From Marivirga salinae (GTDB lineage Bacteria; Bacteroidota; Bacteroidia; Cytophagales; Cyclobacteriaceae), in NCBI RefSeq assembly GCF_030503855.1, contig NZ_CP129971.1, positions 4,340,001-4,404,000 on the forward strand: a DNA stretch of 64,000 nucleotides, written 5' to 3'. The notes under the pieces were generated by a model, which searched no databases, was not told where the DNA came from, and saw only the letters and a list, made by a program, of their open reading frames with translations. This document shows, in pieces, positions 29,915 to 41,521 of the stretch. Within the stretch, counting starts at the first letter, position 1, and the number at the start of each line of letters is the position of its first letter. A program made the position numbers and the translations under genes.

Positions 29915-30084
29915 GATTAAATTCTATGTTCTATTAATTGCTGCTGATTTTTCGCGATATAAACCCCAAGTGATTTCAGAGCTACTAATTTATCAAAGTA
30001 TAACAAACTTTGATGGGGAAAGAAATCTCTTTATTAGCACTTCGACCTAGTGGTATATAACCACAGATACTAAATTAGCAATTT

Positions 30085-32042: not shown

Positions 32043-32202
32043 GATTGTTTGTTTAATAAAAAGAGCACACTAAATACAATTAGCAATCCTTCCCAAAATA
32101 CTTTTTAAAATTGACCTTAATTTTTGATTTTTTCATTCAATCTTTGATTTCTTGTAAAATGATGAGTGTGACATAGAAAATACCAAGCTTGACATCTGCA
32201 CA

Positions 32203-32239
32203 CAGCCACAGCAATTAATAAATTTACAAATTGTGGCTG
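32203..32239. repeat. Hairpin between hypothetical genes
   Basis: CAGCCACA pairs with TGTGGCTG, extended by AATT/AATT further in. It lies in a 241-bp gap between two minus-strand genes. It may be a remnant of a cassette-boundary palindrome, but lacks the end boxes. Confidence 0.4.
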
Positions 32240-32283
32240 ACTTTCCAAGTACCGCCAAACTTTCCTGACTGATGAAACCCCAT

Positions 32284-33153
32284 TCATTCATAGGTGATGT
32301 TGCCAATCGTTTTTGGTCGAAAAGTTTTTCGGATAACAGGCTGGTTCTGATCGTCAAATTCAGTTAAAATAAGGGTGGTATACTTACCTACTTCTATGAG
32401 CTCAGAAATTACATTTCCTTGTTTATCATATTCGTATTCAAATGAGTTTGATCCATGTAGGGAAGAATGTGTTTGTTTGATCTCTCGCCCAAGTTCATCG
32501 TATTGAAATTTGGTTGTTGATATTGTATCATTCTCCTGTATATTTATGGCTCCTATAAGTCTATTTTTTAAATCAAATTTATTATATGTTACTGTAGTGT
32601 CGATTTTATTTCTTCCCTTCAGTTTAGATTTATTTAACGTGACTATTCTGTTACATTTACCTTTTTCATCATAGTACTTAAGTATCTCAAGTTGCACCGT
32701 ATCTACATCCACTATTTCCATCTGATCATTGTAGTCAGGTCTGATAGATAAATATTCTGTACGTCTTAATTCAGTATTTTTATAAAAATTTATTTTGTGT
32801 TCCTGAATTAACCCATCGACAGAATCAATTTCTTCAACTAATTGTGAAGTTTTATTGTATCGATTGATTTGATGTTGCCATTTAATTGAATCACCATTTT
32901 CTAGCTTATAGTGAATCTTTTCAAGAAAGAGTGCGTCTTGATATTTTCTTACTATAACTGACGTGTCAATTAACTTTATAAGTTCAGTATTGGTATTAAA
33001 TGAAGAGTAGATAATCTTAATTCTTTCATTTCCATTTTTAATATGGTCGAAAGTCTCCGTCCACTTCAAATCCCAATTATCAAGTATACTCTGACCTTTT
33101 GAGGTATAAGACATGAGAAAAGTAAATAACACTAGTATAATATATCTAATCAT
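32284..33153 (-). CDS. Secreted hypothetical protein with YD/RHS-like strands
   Basis: The 289-residue protein has a signal peptide (cleavage near TSKGQ). The mature part consists of repeating beta-strand units such as LKYYDEKGKCNRIVTLN, VTYNKFDLKNRLIGAIN, FQYDELGREIKQTHS and YEYDKQGNVISELIE. These resemble YD/RHS strands, as in short antisense-type toxin-associated or surface proteins. It follows the class A palindrome and is the last gene of the cassette-like run on minus. Specific function unknown. Confidence 0.6.
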   Translation of the reverse strand: MIRYIILVLFTFLMSYTSKGQSILDNWDLKWTETFDHIKNGNERIKIIYSSFNTNTELIKLIDTSVIVRKYQDALFLEKIHYKLENGDSIKWQHQINRYNKTSQLVEEIDSVDGLIQEHKINFYKNTELRRTEYLSIRPDYNDQMEIVDVDTVQLEILKYYDEKGKCNRIVTLNKSKLKGRNKIDTTVTYNKFDLKNRLIGAINIQENDTISTTKFQYDELGREIKQTHSSLHGSNSFEYEYDKQGNVISELIEVGKYTTLILTEFDDQNQPVIRKTFRPKTIGNITYE

Positions 33154-33175
33154 GCTTTTCTTAGGGAATATGTTT

Positions 33176-33305
33176 GCTAAATGTTAAGAATATGAGGCAT
33201 TGGGCATTTCAAGGCTCTAATCTACCAATCCAATGCATATTTTCTTAAATGTAATCATTTTCAACTTTAGCACTATCTGCCCCATGACCTATATTTAGTG
33301 TTAGC
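33176..33305 (-). repeat. attC-like palindrome, class A (copy 1)
   Basis: About 130 bp sit between the hydrolase stop and the next gene start. On the gene strand it opens with GCTAACACTAAATATAG and closes with ATATTCTTAACATTTAGC. The two ends pair imperfectly (GCTAA, TAA.ATATAG, GGGCA). An inner arm pair also exists. It is homologous to 39813-39943. The closing box is degenerate (no clean GTT). Confidence 0.65.
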
Positions 33306-33314
33306 AAAAGTTCT

Positions 33315-34409
33315 TTACTCTTCAGTTTGTAGTTTTATCCAAGCTTCAATTTCCTCTAATGCAAGCGGTGAGAAAGTCTGTTCGATGGTTGAGTACTCAT
33401 CTGGCAAACCAGTGTCAGCTTCTTGAAATAAATGGTTCAGTTTCGGCATTTTTTTGATCGTCACCATATCGTTTCCCCCTTTATCTAAGGCCGATTTTAT
33501 TGCACCTAAGTTTTCTTCTCCTGGAATTTGCAGATCTTTTGCTCCATTTATTGCCAAAACCGGACAGTCCACTTGTTCCAGAGCGACACTTGGATCATAC
33601 TGAAGAAAATTTTGAAACCATGCAGCCGTAAAAATCTCAAGAATTTTATCTACGTCCTCAGCTTTCACTTCATCAGGTAAACTCTCTGGTTGAGCTTTTA
33701 AGGATGCTGATAGGTCAGATCTGGTCTCCTCTAAATCGCTGGATTCAATAACAGCACTAAAGATGCTTTCATAAAAGACTAATTCGGCTTCTGTTATATC
33801 AGCGCTAATTCCTTTGGCTTTATTAAGGGTTTCTGTCTGTAGTAAAATCAACTCATATCCAGAGATGGCTGGGGCAGCCATCATCACGATAAAACTTATA
33901 TCCTTTCTTCGGGAAGCAACTAATGGAGCTATCAATCCACCTCCACTATGACCAATCAGACCAATTTTATTTGAATTGACGTCTTTTCTAGACTTCAAAT
34001 AGGCAACTGCGCTCTCTACATCACTTGCTATTTCAGCGTAAGCAGCGACTTCATATTCTCCTTCTGACTGCCCTACACCTCTGTCATCATACCTCAAAAC
34101 ACCAATTCCGTTTGAGGTTAGGTAGTCAGCGATTACTAAAAATGGTTTATGTCCTGCTACTTCTTGATTTCTATTATGCGCGCTGCTCCCGGATATTAAA
34201 ACCACTATTGGAAAATCAGTTTGGCCATTAGGTAAAGTTAATGTACCAGATAATGTAATCTTTGCTTCTTTATTTTGAAACTTTACATCCTCTGAAAAAT
34301 AAGGGTATGGCTCTGTTGGTTCTTGAGGCCTTGGTCCAATTTCAACATCCTGAGCCGTTAATGGATAAAGCGTAATCACTAGGAATAATAAGATTATAAG
34401 ATGCTTCAT
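33315..34409 (-). CDS. Secreted alpha/beta hydrolase (S9/serine-aminopeptidase-like), cassette cargo
   Basis: The 364-residue protein has a signal peptide ending in PLTAQ. The hydrolase domain has VVLISGSSAHNRNQE (oxyanion region), GVLRYDDRGVGQSEG, the nucleophile elbow IGLIGHSGGGLIAPLVAS (Ser ~ residue 155) and CPVLAINGAKDLQIP (Asp), with a final His in KLNHLFQ. This is the common Bacteroidota periplasmic peptidase/esterase form. It lies between attC-like sites at 33176 and 34455. Confidence 0.83.
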   Translation of the reverse strand: MKHLIILLFLVITLYPLTAQDVEIGPRPQEPTEPYPYFSEDVKFQNKEAKITLSGTLTLPNGQTDFPIVVLISGSSAHNRNQEVAGHKPFLVIADYLTSNGIGVLRYDDRGVGQSEGEYEVAAYAEIASDVESAVAYLKSRKDVNSNKIGLIGHSGGGLIAPLVASRRKDISFIVMMAAPAISGYELILLQTETLNKAKGISADITEAELVFYESIFSAVIESSDLEETRSDLSASLKAQPESLPDEVKAEDVDKILEIFTAAWFQNFLQYDPSVALEQVDCPVLAINGAKDLQIPGEENLGAIKSALDKGGNDMVTIKKMPKLNHLFQEADTGLPDEYSTIEQTFSPLALEEIEAWIKLQTEE

Positions 34410-34454
34410 ATAATTTTTGGTAATGTTACATTGGTTAAGGTGGATTCAATTTTC

Positions 34455-34500
34455 GCCAACGGGCTAGTATAAAAATAGTAGCGCATTTATATTCACTAAC
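34455..34500 (-). repeat. Truncated attC-like element (right arm only)
   Basis: GCTACTATTTTTATACTAGCCCGTTGGCG on the gene strand resembles the closing arm of the 35315-35443 site (GGCTACTATTCTTATACTAAACGTTGGCA), but the opening GCTAACA arm is missing. A short stem of ~11 bp remains. The CPBP gene ends just before it and the hydrolase gene starts just after. Confidence 0.5.
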
Positions 34501-35296
34501 CCTTTTTATATTTACTTTCTTCCCTGTAATCGCTTTTATTTTTAAAGTTGTTGGCAAAAGTATTTTCTTTTTCCCATTTCTTGATTATCACAAACCAAAT
34601 TACGATTGAAACACCTAAAATCACGATTTTTTCAGTTCCGTCAATTCCGTTTTTTATTAACGCATTAAACATCATAATTTGGATAATCATATGAAAACAA
34701 GCACTCGCTACAATCGACTTTGTCGATTCAGCTACTTGTCCAATTCCCCAACTTCCAAGAATCATCATTCCTAAAAAGAATAGGTTATCTCCAACAGTTG
34801 CCTTTGTTAAAAATGTCAAATGCCATAAATACCATATAAATCCGATTATTAGATATTTTTTCCAAGGCTTCAATGTTTTTAATTCTTCTTGCAAGTATCC
34901 TCTCCACCCATATTCTTCCATTATACAATATAGAAAAGTCCCAATGGCAGCTATAAGTCCGTACAGGTGATATTCCATTTCAAAGTCATTTGTTACTCCA
35001 ATTATTGTCAAAATTATAATTGGAATAATAACCATTACAAGGCTTTTAGACTTTGAAGTTCCAAATAATGATATTTCCGTCTTTCGCTCTTTCTTCAAAA
35101 AAGGAATAATAATTAATGCGCCTATTATCACTCCGCTACCTTCTAGAAGAACAGTAGTAAATATAAAAACCCAAGTTGGTAGTTTTTCTAATACAGATTT
35201 AAGTTCAAAAATGTCAAATCGGAAAATATTCGACATTAAAGTGGCGATAATAAAAAATATCACTACTCTTTTCCAACTTATATTATTCTTCTCCAT
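34496..35296 (-). CDS. CPBP-family intramembrane protease, cassette cargo
   Basis: The 266-residue protein has about seven hydrophobic segments. The CPBP/Abi motif 1 is EEYGWRGYLQEEL (catalytic Glu pair and Arg, about residue 128) and motif 2 is the His in WHLTF; a later ACFHMIIQIMMFN supplies the third conserved His/Asn. Such glutamic proteases are often self-immunity or prenyl-processing proteins. It is bounded by attC-like sites. Confidence 0.85.
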   Translation of the reverse strand: MEKNNISWKRVVIFFIIATLMSNIFRFDIFELKSVLEKLPTWVFIFTTVLLEGSGVIIGALIIIPFLKKERKTEISLFGTSKSKSLVMVIIPIIILTIIGVTNDFEMEYHLYGLIAAIGTFLYCIMEEYGWRGYLQEELKTLKPWKKYLIIGFIWYLWHLTFLTKATVGDNLFFLGMMILGSWGIGQVAESTKSIVASACFHMIIQIMMFNALIKNGIDGTEKIVILGVSIVIWFVIIKKWEKENTFANNFKNKSDYREESKYKKG

Positions 35297-35314
35297 TTCG
35301 TCTTTTATATTATT

Positions 35315-35443
35315 GCCAACGTTTAGTATAAGAATAGTAGCCGATTGCGTGGCACTTTCCTGTCAAGTTACAAGAAAGTTGAAGCGGGTTACAACCCGTG
35401 AATTTACTACTACTTCGGCTATTATTTTTATACATTGTTAGCC
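35315..35443 (-). repeat. attC-like palindrome, class B
   Basis: The 129-bp element opens on the gene strand with GGCTAACAATGTATAAAAAT and closes with TACTAAACGTTGGCA. The R-like boxes (GCTAAC / GCCAAC) pair with one mismatch, then a spacer, then TATAAAAATAATAGCC against TATAAGAATAGTAGCC, as in attC. Two internal hairpins (CTTTC/GAAAG, CGGGTT/AACCCG) sit in the middle. Confidence 0.72.
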
Positions 35444-35451
35444 ACTGGCAT

Positions 35452-35952
35452 TTATCCAACTGTTAATATTATCACCTTTGAATTATCAGTCAATTTCTCC
35501 AAATTCTCGGAGATAGCTTTTATTCCTTCCAATTCGGCTTTTGCAAATTCAGGGTCAGAATCCTCAGAAAAATCTTTATTAAATTCAATTAGTTCTTCAG
35601 TTGTGATATTAACCGAATTAAGCTTTTCTAAATATAACTCCTTAAGTTTATATGTAAAAATTATCGTTGATATTCCACGTTTCTCAGAAATCCAATTGGC
35701 AATAGAGTCATGTTCGCTGTCAAGTATATTAATCTCCTTTTTCTCTTGTAAGAAAATCAATAGATTGCCAAATACATAGCCTGACCAATCAAAGTCCTTT
35801 AGTTTTTCTGAGTTGGAATCAAGAAATGTCCAAAATTCGTCAATCTTTTCTTTTTTAAACAATCCTTTTTTTACTGTCTTGACCTCTGATTTCTCTTTTA
35901 ATTCGTCAAGTTTATTTGTTTCTATAATCCTAAATTCTGCTATTGCTGACAT
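35452..35952 (-). CDS. Hypothetical cytosolic protein (cassette cargo)
   Basis: The 166-residue acidic protein lacks a signal peptide or membrane segment. It begins SAIAEFRIIETNKLDELKEK and has a helical middle with EFWTFLDSNSEKLKDFDWSGYVFGNLLIFLQEKKEIN. I recognise no family. It starts 6 bp after the preceding gene's stop and ends 9 bp before the class B site, so the two genes travel as one unit. Confidence 0.6.
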   Translation of the reverse strand: MSAIAEFRIIETNKLDELKEKSEVKTVKKGLFKKEKIDEFWTFLDSNSEKLKDFDWSGYVFGNLLIFLQEKKEINILDSEHDSIANWISEKRGISTIIFTYKLKELYLEKLNSVNITTEELIEFNKDFSEDSDPEFAKAELEGIKAISENLEKLTDNSKVIILTVG

Positions 35953-35958
35953 AATTAA

Positions 35959-36369
35959 TTATTTTATTTCACTATCAAGTAATTCTTTATAGCTATTTGC
36001 TTTTTTAACCGAATCAATCCATTTAGGAACAAAGTCATTAGTATTTATTTCGTCTAATCGTTCTAACATGAAAGTCCTTAAATCGTCAAGTGTTACTTTC
36101 TTATTTTCTTGAATGAAACTAAGTTCTACTTTGAATACATTTGGCAGAAATCGAAAAAAGTTCCGCCAAAAAGAAACAGGTGGTCTTCTATCAACTACCT
36201 TAAATACATTTCCCTGACAATCACAAAATTCTTTATCCTTGTAATACTGTATAAATAAATCCTCTTGGTTGGTATAAATAAATTCGTCAAAGAGCATGTA
36301 AACTGTTAAATCATCCTCTTTGTCCCAGTTTTTATCGGATATGTTTATCATCGGATATTTAATGCTCAT
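35959..36369 (-). CDS. Hypothetical cytosolic protein (cassette cargo)
   Basis: The protein is 136 residues from the ATG at 36369 (MSIKYPMINISDKNWDKEDD). An upstream in-frame ATG at 36408 lies inside the palindrome and is unlikely. The sequence is soluble and mixed alpha/beta: LTVYMLFDEFIYTNQEDLFIQYYKDKEFCDCQGNVFKVVD, then helical tail. No family is recognised. It is the first gene of a two-gene unit with 35452-35952. Confidence 0.6.
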   Translation of the reverse strand: MSIKYPMINISDKNWDKEDDLTVYMLFDEFIYTNQEDLFIQYYKDKEFCDCQGNVFKVVDRRPPVSFWRNFFRFLPNVFKVELSFIQENKKVTLDDLRTFMLERLDEINTNDFVPKWIDSVKKANSYKELLDSEIK

Positions 36370-36397
36370 TTTTTGCAGTATGTTCTTTTTGCTTGTG

Positions 36398-36511
36398 GCT
36401 AACGCCACTGTATAAATTCGTGGCTGATTAAAAGTATAAAAATTTGCGTTAACTAACGAGGCAATCCGCAGGATTGCTTACTAGATTAAATTCTTATAGG
36501 TAAGTCAATCC
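36398..36511 (-). repeat. attC-like palindrome, class C copy 1, part 1 of 3 (split by two IS)
   Basis: This part matches the intact copy at 40632-40826 from GGCTAACGCCACTGTATAA to the inner arm CAATCCGCAGGATTG and beyond to TCAATCC. It is then cut by the first IS. The gene-strand end box is GTTAGCC, just upstream of a start codon at 36369. Confidence 0.75.
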
Positions 36512-37528
36512 TTATCTTATGGATAAAGCAAGAGAGTTCAGGTAGTTTTTGTCATATTTTTTATTGTTACGAATAACCGCAAATAATCGATGAATGAGTT
36601 TAGACCGAACCGCATTTAAAACTAGCATTTTATTTTTTCCCTCTTCCACTTTTCTAGTGTAGTAATCTCTTAATTCCCCATCAACCTGGATGGCTGAAAG
36701 GGCTGCCATATGAAAGACTTGCTTTAATTTTTTATTAGCACGTTTAGAAACTCTTGCTTTGGTTTTTAAACTGCTACCAGACATAAATTGAAAAGGAGCT
36801 ACACCAGCGTGACAAGCGAACTTTCTTGGGTCTGAAAAGTCTTTAAATCCTCTGGTAGCCACAATAGTTTGTATTGCTGCTTGTGTTCCTATTCCAGTTA
36901 TTGAGGTAGATAGATTAAACTGATGCTTTAGATTATCATCGTCAGTTATGAGGTGATCAATCTGATCCTGTATGGATTTAAGCTGCAAGACCAGCGTTTT
37001 AATAATAGCCTTATATCGTTTGACTTTGTTTTTGTAGAAAGAGTCAGGGACATGTCCTTTTTGATCTTTGATTTGAGCAGTGTATTTAGTTTTGTCTGTT
37101 AAGATTAAATCTCTTTCATTTAATAAAAATTTGAGTTCTTCAATAACTTCATCATCTCTATTATATAATTTCACTAAGTCTTTAAATCGGAAAGCATAAA
37201 TGGCTATTTTTTCAGAATCAATTTTATCATTTTTAGATCTAGAGATACCCGAACGGTGTTTGATCTGAGCAGCATTTTCAATCCACAGATCAATAGCCAT
37301 AGCTTTACAAGCTTCAACTAAGGAGAAAATATAAAGTCCGGTAAACTCTGCACAAACCAAGCTGTTTTCAATATCAAAGCCATTTCTTTTAAGTGACTTT
37401 AAATGTACAATAATACTTTTAGAGTTGTTTTTACAAACTGAGTGATTGAGTTCACCATCTGTGTTTAAAGTAGTAATGTCAATTTTAGCTTTGCTAATAT
37501 CAATACCAATAAAATTAGAATAATTCAT
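36512..37528 (-). CDS. IS110-family transposase
   Basis: The protein is 338 residues from the ATG at 37528 (MNYSNFIGIDISKAKIDITTL). The DEDD/RuvC-like part has the first Asp in GIDIS, Glu in CAEFTGLY and KNDKIDSEKIAIYAF. The C-terminal Tnp_20 domain has ITGIGTQAAIQTIVAT, FACHAGVAPFQFMSGSS (the active Ser region) and RANKKLKQVFHMAALSAI. It recombines DNA guided by a bridge RNA in its element's noncoding end. The stop codon is formed at the IS end. Confidence 0.92.
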   Translation of the reverse strand: MNYSNFIGIDISKAKIDITTLNTDGELNHSVCKNNSKSIIVHLKSLKRNGFDIENSLVCAEFTGLYIFSLVEACKAMAIDLWIENAAQIKHRSGISRSKNDKIDSEKIAIYAFRFKDLVKLYNRDDEVIEELKFLLNERDLILTDKTKYTAQIKDQKGHVPDSFYKNKVKRYKAIIKTLVLQLKSIQDQIDHLITDDDNLKHQFNLSTSITGIGTQAAIQTIVATRGFKDFSDPRKFACHAGVAPFQFMSGSSLKTKARVSKRANKKLKQVFHMAALSAIQVDGELRDYYTRKVEEGKNKMLVLNAVRSKLIHRLFAVIRNNKKYDKNYLNSLALSIR

Positions 37529-37554
37529 AGATTTACTTTTAAGGATGAAACATA

Positions 37555-37695
37555 AAGGGATTAAGTACACTCCTAATGACCTTAATAGTCGAGACTAATA
37601 TCTTATTGAGGTTTTGAGTACTTAAAAAATAGAATAGTACCTATAAGGATTCTAGATTTTATCTAGCGGATTGACTGGTTTACTATTCTACCTCC
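37555..37695 (-). ncRNA. Candidate bridge RNA of the IS110 element (two guide loops)
   Basis: On the minus strand upstream of the transposase start, two stem-loops are seen. The target-like loop (37631-37689) has a 9-bp stem AGAATAGTA/TACTATTCT, a 6-bp inner hairpin CTAGAT/ATCTAG, and guide bases GCGGATTGAC (37666-37675), identical to the right flank at 37731-37740, and AAGGATT (37645-37651), complementary to AATCC at the left flank. The donor-like loop (37561-37625) has the 8-bp stem TTAAGTAC/GTACTTAA, TATCTTAT (37599-37606) equal to the IS left end at 36513-36520, and CCTTA (37580) matching the other end. Transcript ends are inferred. Confidence 0.7.
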
Positions 37696-37729
37696 TTTCT
37701 TATTATAATACAATATCGTAAATCTAAGG

Positions 37730-37796
37730 TGCGGATTGACGGGCTTTCTACAAAGAGCAGAAGTCGCAATCACCTACTAAACAGCCATGATTTATA
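37730..37796 (-). repeat. attC-like palindrome, class C copy 1, part 2 of 3
   Basis: TGCGGATTGACGGGC to CAGCCATGATTTATA matches the intact site at 40748-40813 with few differences. It is cut by the second IS right after TTTATA. Confidence 0.75.
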
Positions 37797-37883
37797 GCCC
37801 CTATGTAAAAGCATAAGTCCTTAACAGCTAACTTCTTAAATTAGGGTTGGAGAACAAAAATTAAAAGAAAGGAGCAAGGACTT

Positions 37884-38951
37884 ATGAAGACTAAAGTTAA
37901 TGATTTTTCAGGAATGAATATCTATGCAGGAATAGATGTTCACAAAAAGAGCTGGTCAGTCACTATTCTAGTAGATGAACAGGAGCATAGAACATTTAAT
38001 CAACCACCAAGTGCAGAAGTACTATACAAGTATTTAAACAAACATTTCTCAGGGGCTAGCTATCATAGTGCCTATGAAGCTGGCTTTTGTGGTTATGGAC
38101 ACCATCGTCAACTGCTGGAACTAGGAATTGATAATATGGTTATCAATCCAGCTGATGTACCCACGACTGGTAAGGACAAGGCAGGAAAGACCGATAAAGT
38201 AGATAGCCGCAAGATTGCAAAAGGCCTTCGAAACGGGAGCCTGACTGGTATCCATATATTTGATGAATCGGGTCAGGACCTACGGAGCTTTGCCAGGATG
38301 AGGCATAATATGCAGAAAGATTTACGCAAAGCAAAGCAACGCATAAAAGTGTTTCTCAATTTTAACACCATTACTGTTCCTGCGCATCTTGATGATGATA
38401 ATTGGAGTAAAGCTTATGAGACCTGGCTTGAAGAGGAGGTTAAGTTCTCTACTGAAAATGCACGGACTGCTTTCGATTTTATGTTGGCCAACTATCATTA
38501 TCAAAAACAGCAAGTAAGACAGATAAGCAAGGAACTTAGAGCCTACTTTCGCAAATATCATAAACAAGATTATTTCCTACTGCGGACTATTCCCGGTATT
38601 GGTCCATTGTCAGCCATTGCCATTATCAGTGAAGTGGGAGACATTAATCGATTTGCTAATGTCGATAAACTCAGTAGTTATGTTGGATTACTACCGCTGA
38701 CCAATAACAGTGGAGAAACTGAAAGAGTAGGAGGCATGAGTTATAGGTGTAATAATTATCTACGCACTATTCTAGTAGAAGCCTCATGGCAAGCCATCAG
38801 AAAAGATCCTGCCATGTTGCTCTACTACAAAAAGCACGCAGCCAAGGGGAATGGAAAGCGGGCTATTGTGAAGGTGGCTGCCAAGTTGCTCAATAGAATC
38901 AGATATGTATTAAAAAACAAAGAAGAATATGTGTTGGGCGTAGTAAAGTAA
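37884..38951 (+). CDS. IS110-family transposase, IS1111 type
   Basis: The 355-residue protein starts MKTKVNDFSGMNIYAGIDVHKKSWSV. It has the DEDD-like part (YAGIDVHKKSW, YEAGFCGYGHHR, DKVDSRKIAKGLRNG) and the C-terminal Tnp_20 domain (RTIPGIGPLSAIAIISEVGD, YVGLLPLTNNSGETE, RCNNYLRTILVEASWQAIRKDP). IS1111-group relatives with these features include those that target attC sites. AAAGGAG precedes the start by about ten bases. Confidence 0.93.
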   Translation: MKTKVNDFSGMNIYAGIDVHKKSWSVTILVDEQEHRTFNQPPSAEVLYKYLNKHFSGASYHSAYEAGFCGYGHHRQLLELGIDNMVINPADVPTTGKDKAGKTDKVDSRKIAKGLRNGSLTGIHIFDESGQDLRSFARMRHNMQKDLRKAKQRIKVFLNFNTITVPAHLDDDNWSKAYETWLEEEVKFSTENARTAFDFMLANYHYQKQQVRQISKELRAYFRKYHKQDYFLLRTIPGIGPLSAIAIISEVGDINRFANVDKLSSYVGLLPLTNNSGETERVGGMSYRCNNYLRTILVEASWQAIRKDPAMLLYYKKHAAKGNGKRAIVKVAAKLLNRIRYVLKNKEEYVLGVVK

Positions 38952-38994
38952 TAAATTCTAATGAAAATAATTTTTAACCAATTATAAGACAATT

Positions 38995-39160
38995 AATGAA
39001 AGAGGTGATCGCAAAACATTCGTTGCAATGCTTTTTTGAAAGTAGTTGCATTTATAGCATGCGACCCTCTTTACATAAATAAGACATTACAGGGAAATAC
39101 GAAGAAGCAGTGCTTTTATCGCAAATAGCAGCATGGTCTTATAATTTCATACACACAGCG
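38995..39160 (+). ncRNA. Candidate seek/bridge RNA of the IS1111-type element
   Basis: The 3' noncoding region starts with a stem AGAGG..TCGCA (39001-39013) paired to TGCGA..CTCT (39060-39070). Inside, AACATTC (39015-39021) complements GAATGTT of the intact attC-like site (40816-40822; GGATGTT beside the insertion, one G-U wobble). ATTTATA (39050-39056) equals the left flank at 37790-37796. An inner TGCAA/TTGCA hairpin separates them. Downstream, GCTTTTA (39112-39118) complements the left end (TAAAAGC) and TTTCATA (39145-39151) equals the right end. Short matches, so tentative. Confidence 0.55.
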
Positions 39161-39163
39161 CAA

Positions 39164-39236
39164 AACCGTTGACAGTGGATAAGTTGGCATCCCAAGGGCC
39201 CTGCCCAAAACTTACCCACAATCAACAGTTTCAACA
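39164..39236. repeat. Long hairpin in the IS 3' noncoding region
   Basis: AAAACCGTTGACAGTGG / CCACAATCAACAGTTT pairs with a TAAGTT/AACTTA inner segment and a GGGCCC top (39196-39201). It lies between the candidate guide RNA and the right IS end. Its role is unknown; the rest of the gap to 39326 shows no gene. Confidence 0.5.
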
Positions 39237-39326
39237 ATGACAGTAGTGATTTGAAATAAATAGTGTAAATTTATAGAGCAGACCTCCTAATTATAGTTGG
39301 CTGGAACTCTTATGGCTTTTCATAGC

Positions 39327-39341
39327 ACAGGATGTTGGCGG
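39327..39341 (-). repeat. attC-like palindrome, class C copy 1, part 3 of 3
   Basis: ACAGGATGTTGGCGG is the last arm. On the gene strand it reads CCGCCAACATCCTGT, the opening GCCAACA box just after the stop of the 150-residue gene. Confidence 0.7.
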
Positions 39342-39348
39342 TAGTTTT

Positions 39349-39801
39349 TTATTTTTTAATAGTCGTATTCAGCAACATAAATGAGTATTCTTTTCCTTCG
39401 TCAATTAAGTCACCAGATACTTTTATTTTATGATTGGATGTCAATTTTTTCTCATCTGATTTCTCGAGAAAAAGCACGATGATTTTTCTTTTTTCTCCTT
39501 CGTATTCGATTTCTGTCGAAATGTAATGGTGTCCACCGTCAGCACCATTTGATAAAACCTTATAGTCGGTCAGTTCCGCTTCAAACGGTTTGGATTTTAT
39601 CATTTCAGAGTTCAATAAGTATTTGGTGTCACCTGGTTTATTTTCGTAAAGCCAGTTTTTCCGCTTAAGAAGTTCCAGTGTTGAGTCAAAATCCACTTCA
39701 TCATCAAATTCCATTCCTAGTTCGTTCCGAATATCAATGTAAAATCCTGCCCCGTTATGGTTTTTCAGATACTCAATTATATGTTGCTCTTTAGCTGTCA
39801 T
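39349..39801 (-). CDS. Hypothetical protein with possible winged-helix start (cassette cargo)
   Basis: The 150-residue soluble protein starts MTAKEQHIIEYLKNHNGAGFYIDIRNELG, which looks like a winged-helix-type N-terminal part. A beta-rich domain follows (HHYISTEIEYEGEKRKIIVLFLEK, HKIKVSGDLIDEGKEYSFMLLNTTIKK). No family is recognised. Its start lies 12 bp after the class A site and its stop 8 bp before the class C site, so it fills one cassette-like unit. Confidence 0.6.
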   Translation of the reverse strand: MTAKEQHIIEYLKNHNGAGFYIDIRNELGMEFDDEVDFDSTLELLKRKNWLYENKPGDTKYLLNSEMIKSKPFEAELTDYKVLSNGADGGHHYISTEIEYEGEKRKIIVLFLEKSDEKKLTSNHKIKVSGDLIDEGKEYSFMLLNTTIKK

Positions 39802-39812
39802 TTTAAATTACC

Positions 39813-39943
39813 GCCAACGTTAAGAATATAGAGCGTTGGGCACTTCAGGGCTCAAAGCTATCAATTCCCAACATATTTTCTTAAATATAATCATTTTCAA
39901 TTTTAGCACTATCTGCCCAATGAACTATATTTAGTGTTATGCA
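39813..39943 (-). repeat. attC-like palindrome, class A (copy 2)
   Basis: The 131-bp element opens on the gene strand with GCATAACACTAAATATAG and closes with TATATTCTTAACGTTGGC. The arms pair through GC..AAC, TAA, ATATAG and TTGGGCA. An inner arm pair also exists (TTGGG / CCCAA). It is homologous to 33176-33305 through much of its length, including the non-paired middle. Confidence 0.72.
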
Positions 39944-39958
39944 TTTTTCTATTCTCTG

Positions 39959-40603
39959 CTATTTCTTGTTTTTTGTTGCATTAAAATATCCTACCCATAA
40001 GGGAAGTAATATAGCCAATGTTCCAAATAGAATTACAGGAACTGAAACACCTTTAATTATTGCATATATTATGGATAATAGAGAGGTCGCTGTTAGTATT
40101 AGCAGTACTGGCAAGACCCACTTTCGTTCAAAAAATGACTTTTCTTTTATTATTTCATTTGCATTCGCATCATTATATTTTCTAAGGACTTCATCAAGAC
40201 TCTTGCAGTAAATGTCAAAACCCAAGGGGTCACAAAAATTTGAGTTTGCAAGGATTTTAAATTCTCTGCTGTCTTTAAACTTTATTCTTAGTTTTGTGCC
40301 CTCAAAATTTTCAATTTGATAGTTTTGAATTCCATTGAAGTCCACTCTTCGATTGAATGTCGATAAGTTAAGGTCGGTAAAAGAATCTTGAATTATTGCA
40401 GAGCCCTCTTTTCTAAAGCCTCTCTTTTTAACCCAGAAAAACAAAATTGGTATAGAGAATGAAATAATCAAAGCTATTATCACTCCTAGAGATTTAATGA
40501 ATATAAATGTTAGAATCATTAAGCACGCAAAAATCAAAGCAGTTATACCGAATATTTTAAGGATGTAGTTTGTGTCGGTATATTCAAAGTTGTATTCTTT
40601 CAT
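39959..40603 (-). CDS. Hypothetical membrane protein (cassette cargo)
   Basis: The protein is 214 residues from the ATG at 40603 (MKEYNFEYTDTNYILKIFG); the ATG at 40621 adds six residues. Two helices lie near residues 17-55 and two near residues 165-210, with a ~100-residue cytosolic domain (VDFNGIQNYQIENFEGTKLRIKFKDSREFKILANSNFCDP) between. It resembles the PH-like YcxB/DUF304 layout but I cannot confirm. It fills one unit between the class A and class C sites. Confidence 0.6.
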   Translation of the reverse strand: MKEYNFEYTDTNYILKIFGITALIFACLMILTFIFIKSLGVIIALIISFSIPILFFWVKKRGFRKEGSAIIQDSFTDLNLSTFNRRVDFNGIQNYQIENFEGTKLRIKFKDSREFKILANSNFCDPLGFDIYCKSLDEVLRKYNDANANEIIKEKSFFERKWVLPVLLILTATSLLSIIYAIIKGVSVPVILFGTLAILLPLWVGYFNATKNKK

Positions 40604-40631
40604 TGTTGTATTTCTGTCCATGCGACATTAT

Positions 40632-40826
40632 GCATAACGCCACTGTATAAATTCGTGGCTGATTAAAAGTATAAAAATTTGCGTTAACTACCGAGGCAAT
40701 CCGCAGGATTGGCTTATTAAATTAATTCTTACCCAATAAATCAATCCTGCAGATTGACGGGCTATCTACAAAGAGCCGAAGTCACAATAACCTACTTACA
40801 GCCATGATTTATACAGAATGTTGTGC
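40632..40826 (-). repeat. attC-like palindrome, class C (intact copy)
   Basis: The 195-bp element on the gene strand opens with GCACAACATTCTGTATAAAT and closes with ATTTATACAGTGGCGTTATGC, the two ends pairing over ~26 bp with a small spacer mismatch. Inner arms CAATCCGCAGGATTG (40697-40711) and CAATCCTGCAGATTG (40742-40756) also pair. The stop of the 178-residue gene (40809) lies within its opening arm, as is common for cassette genes. Confidence 0.75.
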
Positions 40827-41345
40827 CCAGTTTTCTTTTATATTCTTGGTTTTTAAAATCCATATTAACATTCCCAAACAAAGAAGTCCAAAGCAAATGA
40901 TTGCAATTGCTGCTATTGAATGGTTTTTTTGATAGTCAGAATGATTTACAATTATCTGTCCGTTAGATTCTATTTGATAAACATTATTTGTTGGGCTTTT
41001 ATCAGAGGAGTCGTAGTAAAATATTGTTATTTGTTTCCCTTGGTTTAACTGTTTCTGTAATTCATAATAGGACTGCTTAGGGTTAAAGGTTCCAAACAAC
41101 TTGTCATGTTCTTTTAATTTAATTCCAAAATAATCTTGGTCAGTGTAGGTAAATGGTACAGCTCCTACCTTTTTATTATCAGTTACAATTTGAGTTAATT
41201 CAATAGTCCCTGTCAATTTGTGTGTGTCGTCTAGATTTCTCGTCTGGTTATCAATTAGCATCTTGAGACCCAGAATTGACATCACCAGTCCAAGTCCACT
41301 AAGACTTATTAATGCAAGAATGTTTTTTAATATGGTTTTATTCAT
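40809..41345 (-). CDS. Hypothetical membrane protein, DUF3592-like layout (cassette cargo)
   Basis: The 178-residue protein has one helix at residues 10-31, a beta-rich extracytoplasmic domain (VGAVPFTYTDQDYFGIKLKEHDKLFGT, QGKQITIFYYDSSDKSPTNNVYQIES) and a second helix at residues ~142-165. That layout resembles DUF3592 proteins; family membership is not certain. The last codons (WAQHSV) and stop are part of the palindrome at 40632-40826. Confidence 0.6.
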   Translation of the reverse strand: MNKTILKNILALISLSGLGLVMSILGLKMLIDNQTRNLDDTHKLTGTIELTQIVTDNKKVGAVPFTYTDQDYFGIKLKEHDKLFGTFNPKQSYYELQKQLNQGKQITIFYYDSSDKSPTNNVYQIESNGQIIVNHSDYQKNHSIAAIAIICFGLLCLGMLIWILKTKNIKENWAQHSV

Positions 41346-41355
41346 TTTTTAATTG

Positions 41356-41394
41356 GGTACAACAAGTGAATATAGTCACCCCCCGGTGACTATA
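41356..41394 (-). repeat. Hairpin with a GTT-like box at the array edge
   Basis: TATAGTCACC (41371-41380) pairs with GGTGACTATA (41385-41394) around CCCC. On the minus strand it is followed by CACTTGTTGTACCC, with GTTGTAC resembling the closing box of the other sites. It lies just upstream of the first cassette-like gene. It may be a decayed site, an operator or a terminator. Confidence 0.4.
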
Positions 41395-41482
41395 TATCTA
41401 TTATACATTTCTAAACTTACTAATAAATTAATTGAAAAAAAAGACCTTAATAACTGACTTAAATAAACTATTCAGCCATTAA

Positions 41483-41521
41483 CCGTAGAATTAAACGTTT
41501 ATTAAACGTTTAACTCTACGG
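41483..41521 (-). terminator. Strong hairpin after the PafA-like phosphatase gene
   Basis: CCGTAGA..TTAAACGTTT and AAACGTTTAA..TCTACGG pair over 17 bp with one mismatch and a 3-base loop. It lies 8 bp beyond the stop at 41529 on minus. Not followed by a clear T-run. Confidence 0.6.

Follow-up and report, generated by a model that had tools for sequence, protein, structure and literature searches.

The stretch of Marivirga salinae DNA considered here, called the window (64 kb, G000:C1:4340001-4404000, in a genome of 4.49 Mb on one contig), carries on its minus strand at 33.2-41.4 kb six gene cassettes with an attC-like site between each. The cassette genes comprise a 178-aa gene, a 220-aa open reading frame (ORF), a 150-aa gene, a 149- plus 166-aa pair, and genes for a CPBP/Rce1-like protease and an alpha/beta hydrolase. 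Each cassette ends in an imperfect palindrome that opens with RYYYAACA and, where intact, closes with CGTTRRRY; the third palindrome is interrupted and the core of the sixth is mutated. The attC-like palindromes, GCnnAACA openings and GTTRGC or GTTATGC closings reported in a preliminary description are present where it placed them, and its 214-aa gene is indeed a cassette gene, although the ORF measures 220 aa (39959-40621). The boundary at 41.36-41.40 kb, which was there taken for a truncated attC, is instead attI-like, with an operator-like palindrome on its upstream side. Features are given below in window coordinates, with E-values from a covariance model (R1) described further on.

41483..41521, minus strand: operator-like palindrome, CCGTAGA..TCTACGG around AAACGTTTAATAAACGTTTAA, upstream of attI
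41355..41395, minus strand: attI-like site, a ATATAGTCACC-GGGG-GGTGACTATAT palindrome, 6 nt and a GTT core
40636..41363, minus strand: cassette 1, 178-aa gene (40809-41345) and attC; second copy identical at 728/728 nt
40631..40826, minus strand: attC-like site of cassette 1, long type (R1 E 1.7e-7)
39816..40638, minus strand: cassette 2, 220-aa ORF (39959-40621); end match GTTATGCAT/ATGCATAAC
39811..39942, minus strand: attC-like site of cassette 2 (R1 E 5.3e-22)
39334..39818, minus strand: cassette 3, 150-aa gene (39349-39801); 10-nt end match GTTGGCGGTA/TACCGCCAAC
37884..38951, plus strand: IS110-family transposase gene in an interrupted site region (NF033542, 226 bits)
36512..37570, minus strand: IS110-family transposase gene between the halves of a long-type attC (NF033542, 140 bits)
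35318..36403, minus strand: cassette 4, 149-aa and 166-aa genes; end match 6/7, GTTAGCCAC/GTGGCTAAC
35313..35443, minus strand: attC-like site of cassette 4 (R1 E 6.5e-25)
34458..35320, minus strand: cassette 5, CPBP/Rce1-like protease, 266 aa (PF02517); end match 6/7
34454..34556, minus strand: attC-like site of cassette 5, overlapping the 3' end of the gene (R1 E 2.3e-7)
33184..34460, minus strand: cassette 6, alpha/beta hydrolase, 364 aa; end match 5/7
33175..33306, minus strand: attC-like site of cassette 6 (R1 E 2.4e-20)
32130..32315, minus strand: truncated attC-like site, left arm intact and right arm decayed (by eye; ends approximate)

The attC of cassette 3 starts at about 39343 and is not intact; the IS110 region comes next, and two IS110-family elements break up sites at 36.5-39.0 kb. 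At the other end of the array, the right core of the cassette 6 attC reads ATT (GTT in its copy at locus L070, by flank comparison). Together with the truncated attC near 32.3 kb and a weak R1 match at 29958-30059 (E 1e-4), this mutated core suggests array decay at the 33.2 kb end. PADLOC gave no match for five window cassette proteins. Rfam at the gathering threshold gave no match in the window, a result that carries no weight because attC, to our knowledge, has no Rfam entry.

The array organisation and the movement of cassettes are well supported. In integron cassettes, the 5' core and the 3' inverse core stem from one circle, so the two ends of a cassette are expected to match while those of one attC need not. 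Across 25 own-genome cassettes (six in the window and 19 elsewhere, including L042_4004, which matches at 1/7 and spans IS110 rather than a single cassette), a mean of 6.04/7 positions outside GTT agreed between the start and the reverse-complemented end. When cassette ends were paired by permutation, the mean fell to 2.55/7 (maximum 3.64 in 20,000 permutations), and the two ends of one attC-like site matched at 2.5/7 (n=20). The 178-aa cassette has a copy 2.27 Mb off, at G000:C1:2107422-2108149, identical over 728/728 nt, and this identity stops at the GTT cores on both sides; a 193-aa cassette also has two genome copies (645/645 nt identical). The hydrolase cassette has a counterpart at L070 in another genome of the genus (G006), with 94.4% identity over 1277 nt; the left flank of this pair diverges at GTT, and on the right side, where the window core is mutated, the fixed-offset comparison is out of register. 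In three checked cassette pairs the flanks diverge at GTT on both sides. Comparison of 238 candidates, many of them overlapping alternatives, also revealed a cassette common to G005 and G009 (99.86% identical, 697 nt), another common to G009 and G006 (90.6%, 743 columns), and part of a gene (866 nt) that G005 and the flavobacterium Algibacter onchidii have in common at 90.8% identity. Discrete mobile cassettes with complementary ends are a property that these arrays share with integrons, which disseminate resistance genes in other bacteria.

The sequence upstream of cassette 1 recurs at four loci (377 kb, 1.466 Mb, 2.104 Mb and 2.663 Mb); counting the window array, the genome has five platforms headed by an attI. 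The window attI (41359-41397) is identical over 39 nt to G000:C1:2662613-2662651. At this 2.663 Mb platform the palindrome begins 5 nt past the stop codon of an integrase gene and the array continues in the same direction, and at 2.104 Mb the last codons of such an integrase persist ahead of attI; of the five attI copies, one is accompanied by the integrase gene and another by this remnant. On 5/5 own platforms, the core on the attI side agrees with the end of the first cassette. A GTT core lies shortly 3' of the integrase at 21 listed loci (L052 is unclear), and the attI palindrome scores above shuffles at 14/18 loci, including the L050 copy. As in integrons, an attI with a GTT core stands beside the integrase gene, and it is predicted to be the cassette entry point. 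A repeat similar to the operator-like palindrome sits between divergent Zn-ribbon and integrase genes at L050 and L043 and, by eye, at most listed loci; it is kept, again by eye, at all 4 integrase-less platforms.

The integrase is a tyrosine recombinase (G000:C1:2662658-2663815; L043:7655-8815) encoded 1.7 Mb from the window, where it heads its own array. It is the one match to its own sequence in the genome at E<=1e-60. Pfam Phage_integrase (PF00589) has four matches in the genome and none in the window, the nearest being a 421-aa protein about 31 kb ahead of the window start. The preliminary description was therefore right that the window holds no integrase gene, but the IntI type that it proposed to search for is not what the genome's linked integrase turned out to be. 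This protein has 69 aa between the KDR and HxLRH motifs, compared with 111 in IntI1 and three canonical IntI and 92 in L167; it is short of the approximately 42 residues of the IntI-specific additional (I2) domain that marks the integrases of canonical integrons, and carries approximately 110 additional aa at the N-terminus. It scores 208.8 bits, in two pieces, against TIGR02249 (cut-off 265) and 218 bits against XerA (cut-off 220). The residues R239, K264, H328, R331, H354 and Y363, which we take to be the catalytic set, are invariant across 15 aligned integrases. The Vibrio cholerae IntI (2a3v) is the best PDB match by sequence and by fold, with archaeal Xer proteins almost level (structure model with a predicted local distance difference test score of 80 and a predicted template modelling score of 0.49). 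The N-terminal domain shows weak structural likeness to XPB damage-recognition and SMARCAL1 HARP domains; Pfam HARP matched 0/14 N-terminal pieces and 0/10 whole relatives, and a PDB sequence search with the N-terminal profile gave 0 matches. In a 47-row tree, from which 18/65 rows (fragments, near copies and long branches) had been removed, canonical IntI (9 rows) and the family of the integrase (18 rows) are separate, each with support of 100/100, and their joining is weakly supported (21/77); a 64-row tree supports the integrase family at 89/100. On these phylogenies, the integrase is placed outside the IntI clade. A single clade for five distant array-bearing integrases was not recovered (5 changes for 5 rows).

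The fold of the attC-like sites was assessed on an alignment of 35 sites from 16 loci outside the own genome, taken from 43 candidates of 112-126 nt and selected for AACA and CGTT to set orientation; a MAFFT alignment across all site lengths misaligned long sites and was not used. A 19-bp stem is paired at 91.7% in these 35 sites, compared with 34-47% in slid controls. Both sides change at 15/19 pairs, double-change cells number 155 against 48 in shuffles (0/500), and one bottom-strand G.T pair is kept in 35/35 sites. On the gene strand of 121 sites passing the same AACA/CGTT orientation filter, A.C mismatches outnumber G.T (284 against 109), and the bottom strand therefore folds better. With arms only, this is the case at 105/121 sites elsewhere and at 21/22 in the own genome; with whole sites, the figures are 93/121 and 16/22. 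These sites share with canonical attC the R boxes (RYYYAAC/GTTRRRY), the L stem, the spacers and the variable terminal part. In canonical attC, extrahelical bases on the L'' arm are described as primary in strand choice (PMC2727003). Conserved bases of this kind are absent here: unmatched insertions occur on the L'' arm in 5/35 sites and on the L' arm in 5/35, compared with an extra L''-arm base in 27/29 canonical control sites (L192 and L194 taken in the other orientation).

R1, the covariance model built from these 35 sites, finds five sites in the window (E 6e-25 to 2e-7) and at least 26 in the own genome at E<=2.4e-5 (150 of 2649 candidates scored). It is not fully independent of this genome because genus genomes share attC types, and its E-values are rough. 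Matches also lie off the five platforms (G000:C1:3628362, 455424, 3951241, 4107124, 4303566, 3885529 and 3888358), perhaps representing cassettes at secondary sites. On 18 canonical loci, R1 gave strong matches only at L197 (4 sites), in a genome of another class (G304), where the four Bacteroidia-type attC sites lie several kb upstream of a canonical IntI; exchange of sites between integrase types is possible. A second, small model of canonical attC (R2; 23 sites, 6 loci) has no match in the window. It is weak outside its training loci. Run on 16 sources, it gave two weak matches (E 0.009 and 0.06), both in Flavobacterium enshiense. Its null results are weak evidence of difference because it recognises only 2/12 untrained canonical loci.

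Altogether, the region is very probably a chromosomal integron array that relies, in trans, on the integrase encoded at G000:C1:2662658-2663815, with cassettes joined at GTT cores. It would consist of an attI-like site followed by six cassettes, each made of a gene or gene pair and an attC-like site, and would, for want of an integrase of its own, most likely depend on the distant enzyme. The integrase would join the GTT of the attC of a circular cassette to the GTT beside the attI palindrome, and new cassettes would therefore enter at the attI end, while recombination between two attC sites would release them. We infer that the I2-less integrase acts in trans on the folded bottom strand and that its additional N-terminal domain replaces I2. 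Cassettes are presumably transcribed from a promoter upstream of int/attI, since the integrase gene is oriented in the direction of attI and the operator-like repeat is retained on platforms that lack an integrase. The system is of the integron type and lies outside the IntI clade. The suggestion in the preliminary description of an unrecognised lineage of attC-like sites bounding mobile cassettes is supported: further copies of the palindromes exist in the genome, cassettes move as units (the duplicated 178-aa cassette, the hydrolase cassette shared with G006), and a covariance model recognises the five window sites, with the reservation that it was built from related arrays. It is also fairly probable, in our judgement, that Bacteroidia harbour a second integron lineage, in which Xer/XerA-like integrases never had I2 and folded attC never had extrahelical bases, the strand being picked by an N-terminal structure-specific DNA-binding domain and by wobble positions such as the invariant bottom-strand G.T. 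Such a lineage would represent either a surviving intermediate or a separate origin of cassette capture.

Three points weigh against recombination on a folded strand, namely the missing I2 domain, the lack of conserved extrahelical bases, and an attI that is a compact palindrome with arms mostly of 8-12 bp. They would be accommodated if the same integrase used attC as double-stranded Xer-type sites, the hairpin being simply two inverted integrase-binding arms. A compact attI palindrome resembles a Xer/Cre core site. A double-strand path is held possible in theory for integrons by Escudero et al. (PMC4792948). However, 60-200 nt separate the arms in most attC, more than one duplex core could span (a few whole sites measure about 60 nt), and the 19 covarying or invariant pairs, the G.T kept in 35/35 sites and the bottom-strand advantage fit a folded strand; we consider the double-stranded mechanism unlikely.

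The absence of a nearby integrase is what defines a cluster of attC sites lacking integrase (CALIN), but an attI heads the window array. It could still be asked whether this is a degraded canonical integron, with cassettes mobilised by a true IntI since lost or present on another replicon, as the general anatomy is that of an integron, G304 combines a canonical IntI with four sites of the Bacteroidia attC type, and canonical IntI is found above the cut-off in 105/395 phylum genomes. Such an origin appears improbable. For the own genome, in which 5 of 7 candidates were scored, TIGR02249 has no listed match at E<=1e-50, and 107 of the 108 phylum genomes with a TIGR02249 match are labelled as another class (only G336 is labelled as the class of the window). 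R2 has no window match, and the 39 nt of the window attI are identical to the attI beside the I2-less integrase. Finally, REP-like (repetitive extragenic palindromic) or MITE-like (miniature inverted-repeat transposable element) palindromes, spread by an unrelated transposase and lying between genes by chance, would suit the long near-identical stretches that several sites share genome-wide and the IS110 elements inside them, but are scarcely credible given the matching of cassette ends, which already contradicts them, the exact cassette copies, the single site per cassette in a single orientation, the attI at the array head and the linkage to an integrase.

The integron array proposed here resembles sedentary chromosomal integrons with IntI in having attI, oriented cassettes, GTTRRRY/RYYYAAC cores, hairpin attC with a variable terminal part, and matching cassette ends. 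It differs from them in an integrase that lacks I2 and has an added N-terminal domain of about 110 aa, in attC without conserved extrahelical bases, and in the form and place of attI, a short palindrome lying past the 3' end of the integrase gene. Treponema integrases are usually classed as canonical IntI. Their genes are likewise transcribed toward attI, in the cassette direction (PMC3607928). XerA (NF040815, 'site-specific tyrosine recombinase/integron integrase') is alike in lacking I2, and its cut-off is narrowly missed; the Marivirga integrase differs from it by the extra N-terminal domain, the attI and the cassette arrays. In CTXphi integration by XerCD, Xer recombinases that have no I2-like domain act on a folded site that has no extrahelical bases (PMC4792948), but this phage uses the Xer of its host and has neither cassettes nor an integrase of its own. 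How I2 and extrahelical bases could arise has been presented as a chicken-and-egg paradox (PMC4792948). The Marivirga system is a cassette system with neither; should its I2-less integrase prove active on the attC-like sites, the system would bear directly on this paradox.

Arrays of this kind have probably been overlooked so far. IntegronFinder is described as accepting an integron integrase only if the IntI-specific domain is present (PMC9668308), and would therefore not name the I2-less integrase; the most that could be expected is that its arrays, where recognised by the attC model, are listed as clusters lacking an integrase. For Bacteroidetes proper, the account of IntegronFinder 2 mentions one complete integron, that of Salinibacter (PMC9024848), and Bacteroidota are among the integron-bearing phyla listed elsewhere (PMC8618304). 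No paper on I2-less integrons in Bacteroidota was among the open-access matches listed, a scope that leaves out subscription papers and preprints.

The integrase appears patchily distributed, since it is found in 8/10 genus genomes (E<=1e-60), 7/291 order genomes and 5/395 phylum genomes (E<=1e-95, own genome included); its nearest named relatives are from Marivirga. Arrays beside integrases were sought with a scanner for end matching, and counts use its strict setting because the loose setting chained false sites (at L062, L072 and L073). Strict chains reached at most 2 sites in 12 control sequences, with scores of at most 18.3 apart from L062 (28.2), which lies downstream of an integrase; among canonical IntI loci, at least 3 chained sites were found at 6/14, one of them scoring only 29.3. 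Strict chains of at least 3 sites lie beside the integrase at 7/11 genus loci (L063, L064, L066, L067, L069, L070 and L071); of the remainder, L062 shows two sites, the sequences of L065 and L068 run out after a few hundred bases, and L072 is a partial copy. The same holds for 8/10 loci of other genera (not L076 and L077); at L078, L080 and L082, three sites were reached in the reverse reading alone. A scan of 80 named loci included 9 with at least 50% integrase identity, with arrays at 4/9 (Winogradskyella ursingii, Flavobacteriaceae S0862, Seonamhaeicola aphaedonensis and Aequorivita sinensis) and no array at the other 5/9, three of which have less than 1.2 kb downstream while the other two (Pontibacter L150 and Aquiflexum L115) have more. 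Arrays also lie downstream of 37-45% identical integrases in Rufibacter (first detected site 4 kb from the integrase), Flavobacterium aciduliphilum, A. onchidii, F. enshiense and GWF2 Bacteroidetes. In this 80-locus scan, 3-site chains at L129, L137, L166, L169 and L173 (scores 23-29) were not counted.

Close relatives of the Zn-ribbon gene adjoin the integrase at 11/12 genus loci, one of them weakly, the exception being a partial integrase copy, and at 8/10 loci of other genera. The gene was dropped as a unique marker because related proteins occur in 73/291 order genomes; close ones (E<=2e-38) are found in 8 order genomes, and 5 of these 8 also encode the integrase (E<=1e-95).

Two further relatives were observed outside these counts. 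A Spirochaetota metagenome-assembled genome (L135, JARKUF010000008.1) encodes an I2-less integrase that is 34% identical over residues 5-381, with an N-terminal Pfam HARP match and, by eye, a palindrome and GTT just 3' of the gene; R1 finds no site at this locus. The system may thus extend beyond Bacteroidota. The 395-kb plasmid CP012862.1 of Persicobacter sp. JZB09 (L086) encodes a full-length, 40.5% identical integrase; a strict scan gave no array there, and a CAATTGTTGGCGG attI-like core is present downstream.

In the own genome, IS110-family copies that are 98% identical (window 36512-37570; G000:C1:372685 and 2654109) each lie between the halves of the long attC type, as if the element were targeting the loop of this type. 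Members of the IS1111 family, related to IS110, are known to insert in attC sites (the IS1111-attC group; PMC11187229). In contrast to that group, the element here splits a Bacteroidia-type attC in two and does not sit at one end. Within the integrase-headed array, a cassette at L043:3412-5810 (G000:C1 about 2658412-2660810) encodes an NgoFVII-like endonuclease and a C-5 cytosine methylase together with an XRE regulator, which make up what looks like a complete restriction-modification system. This cassette and the gene common to G005, of the genus of the window, and Algibacter indicate a route of gene exchange.

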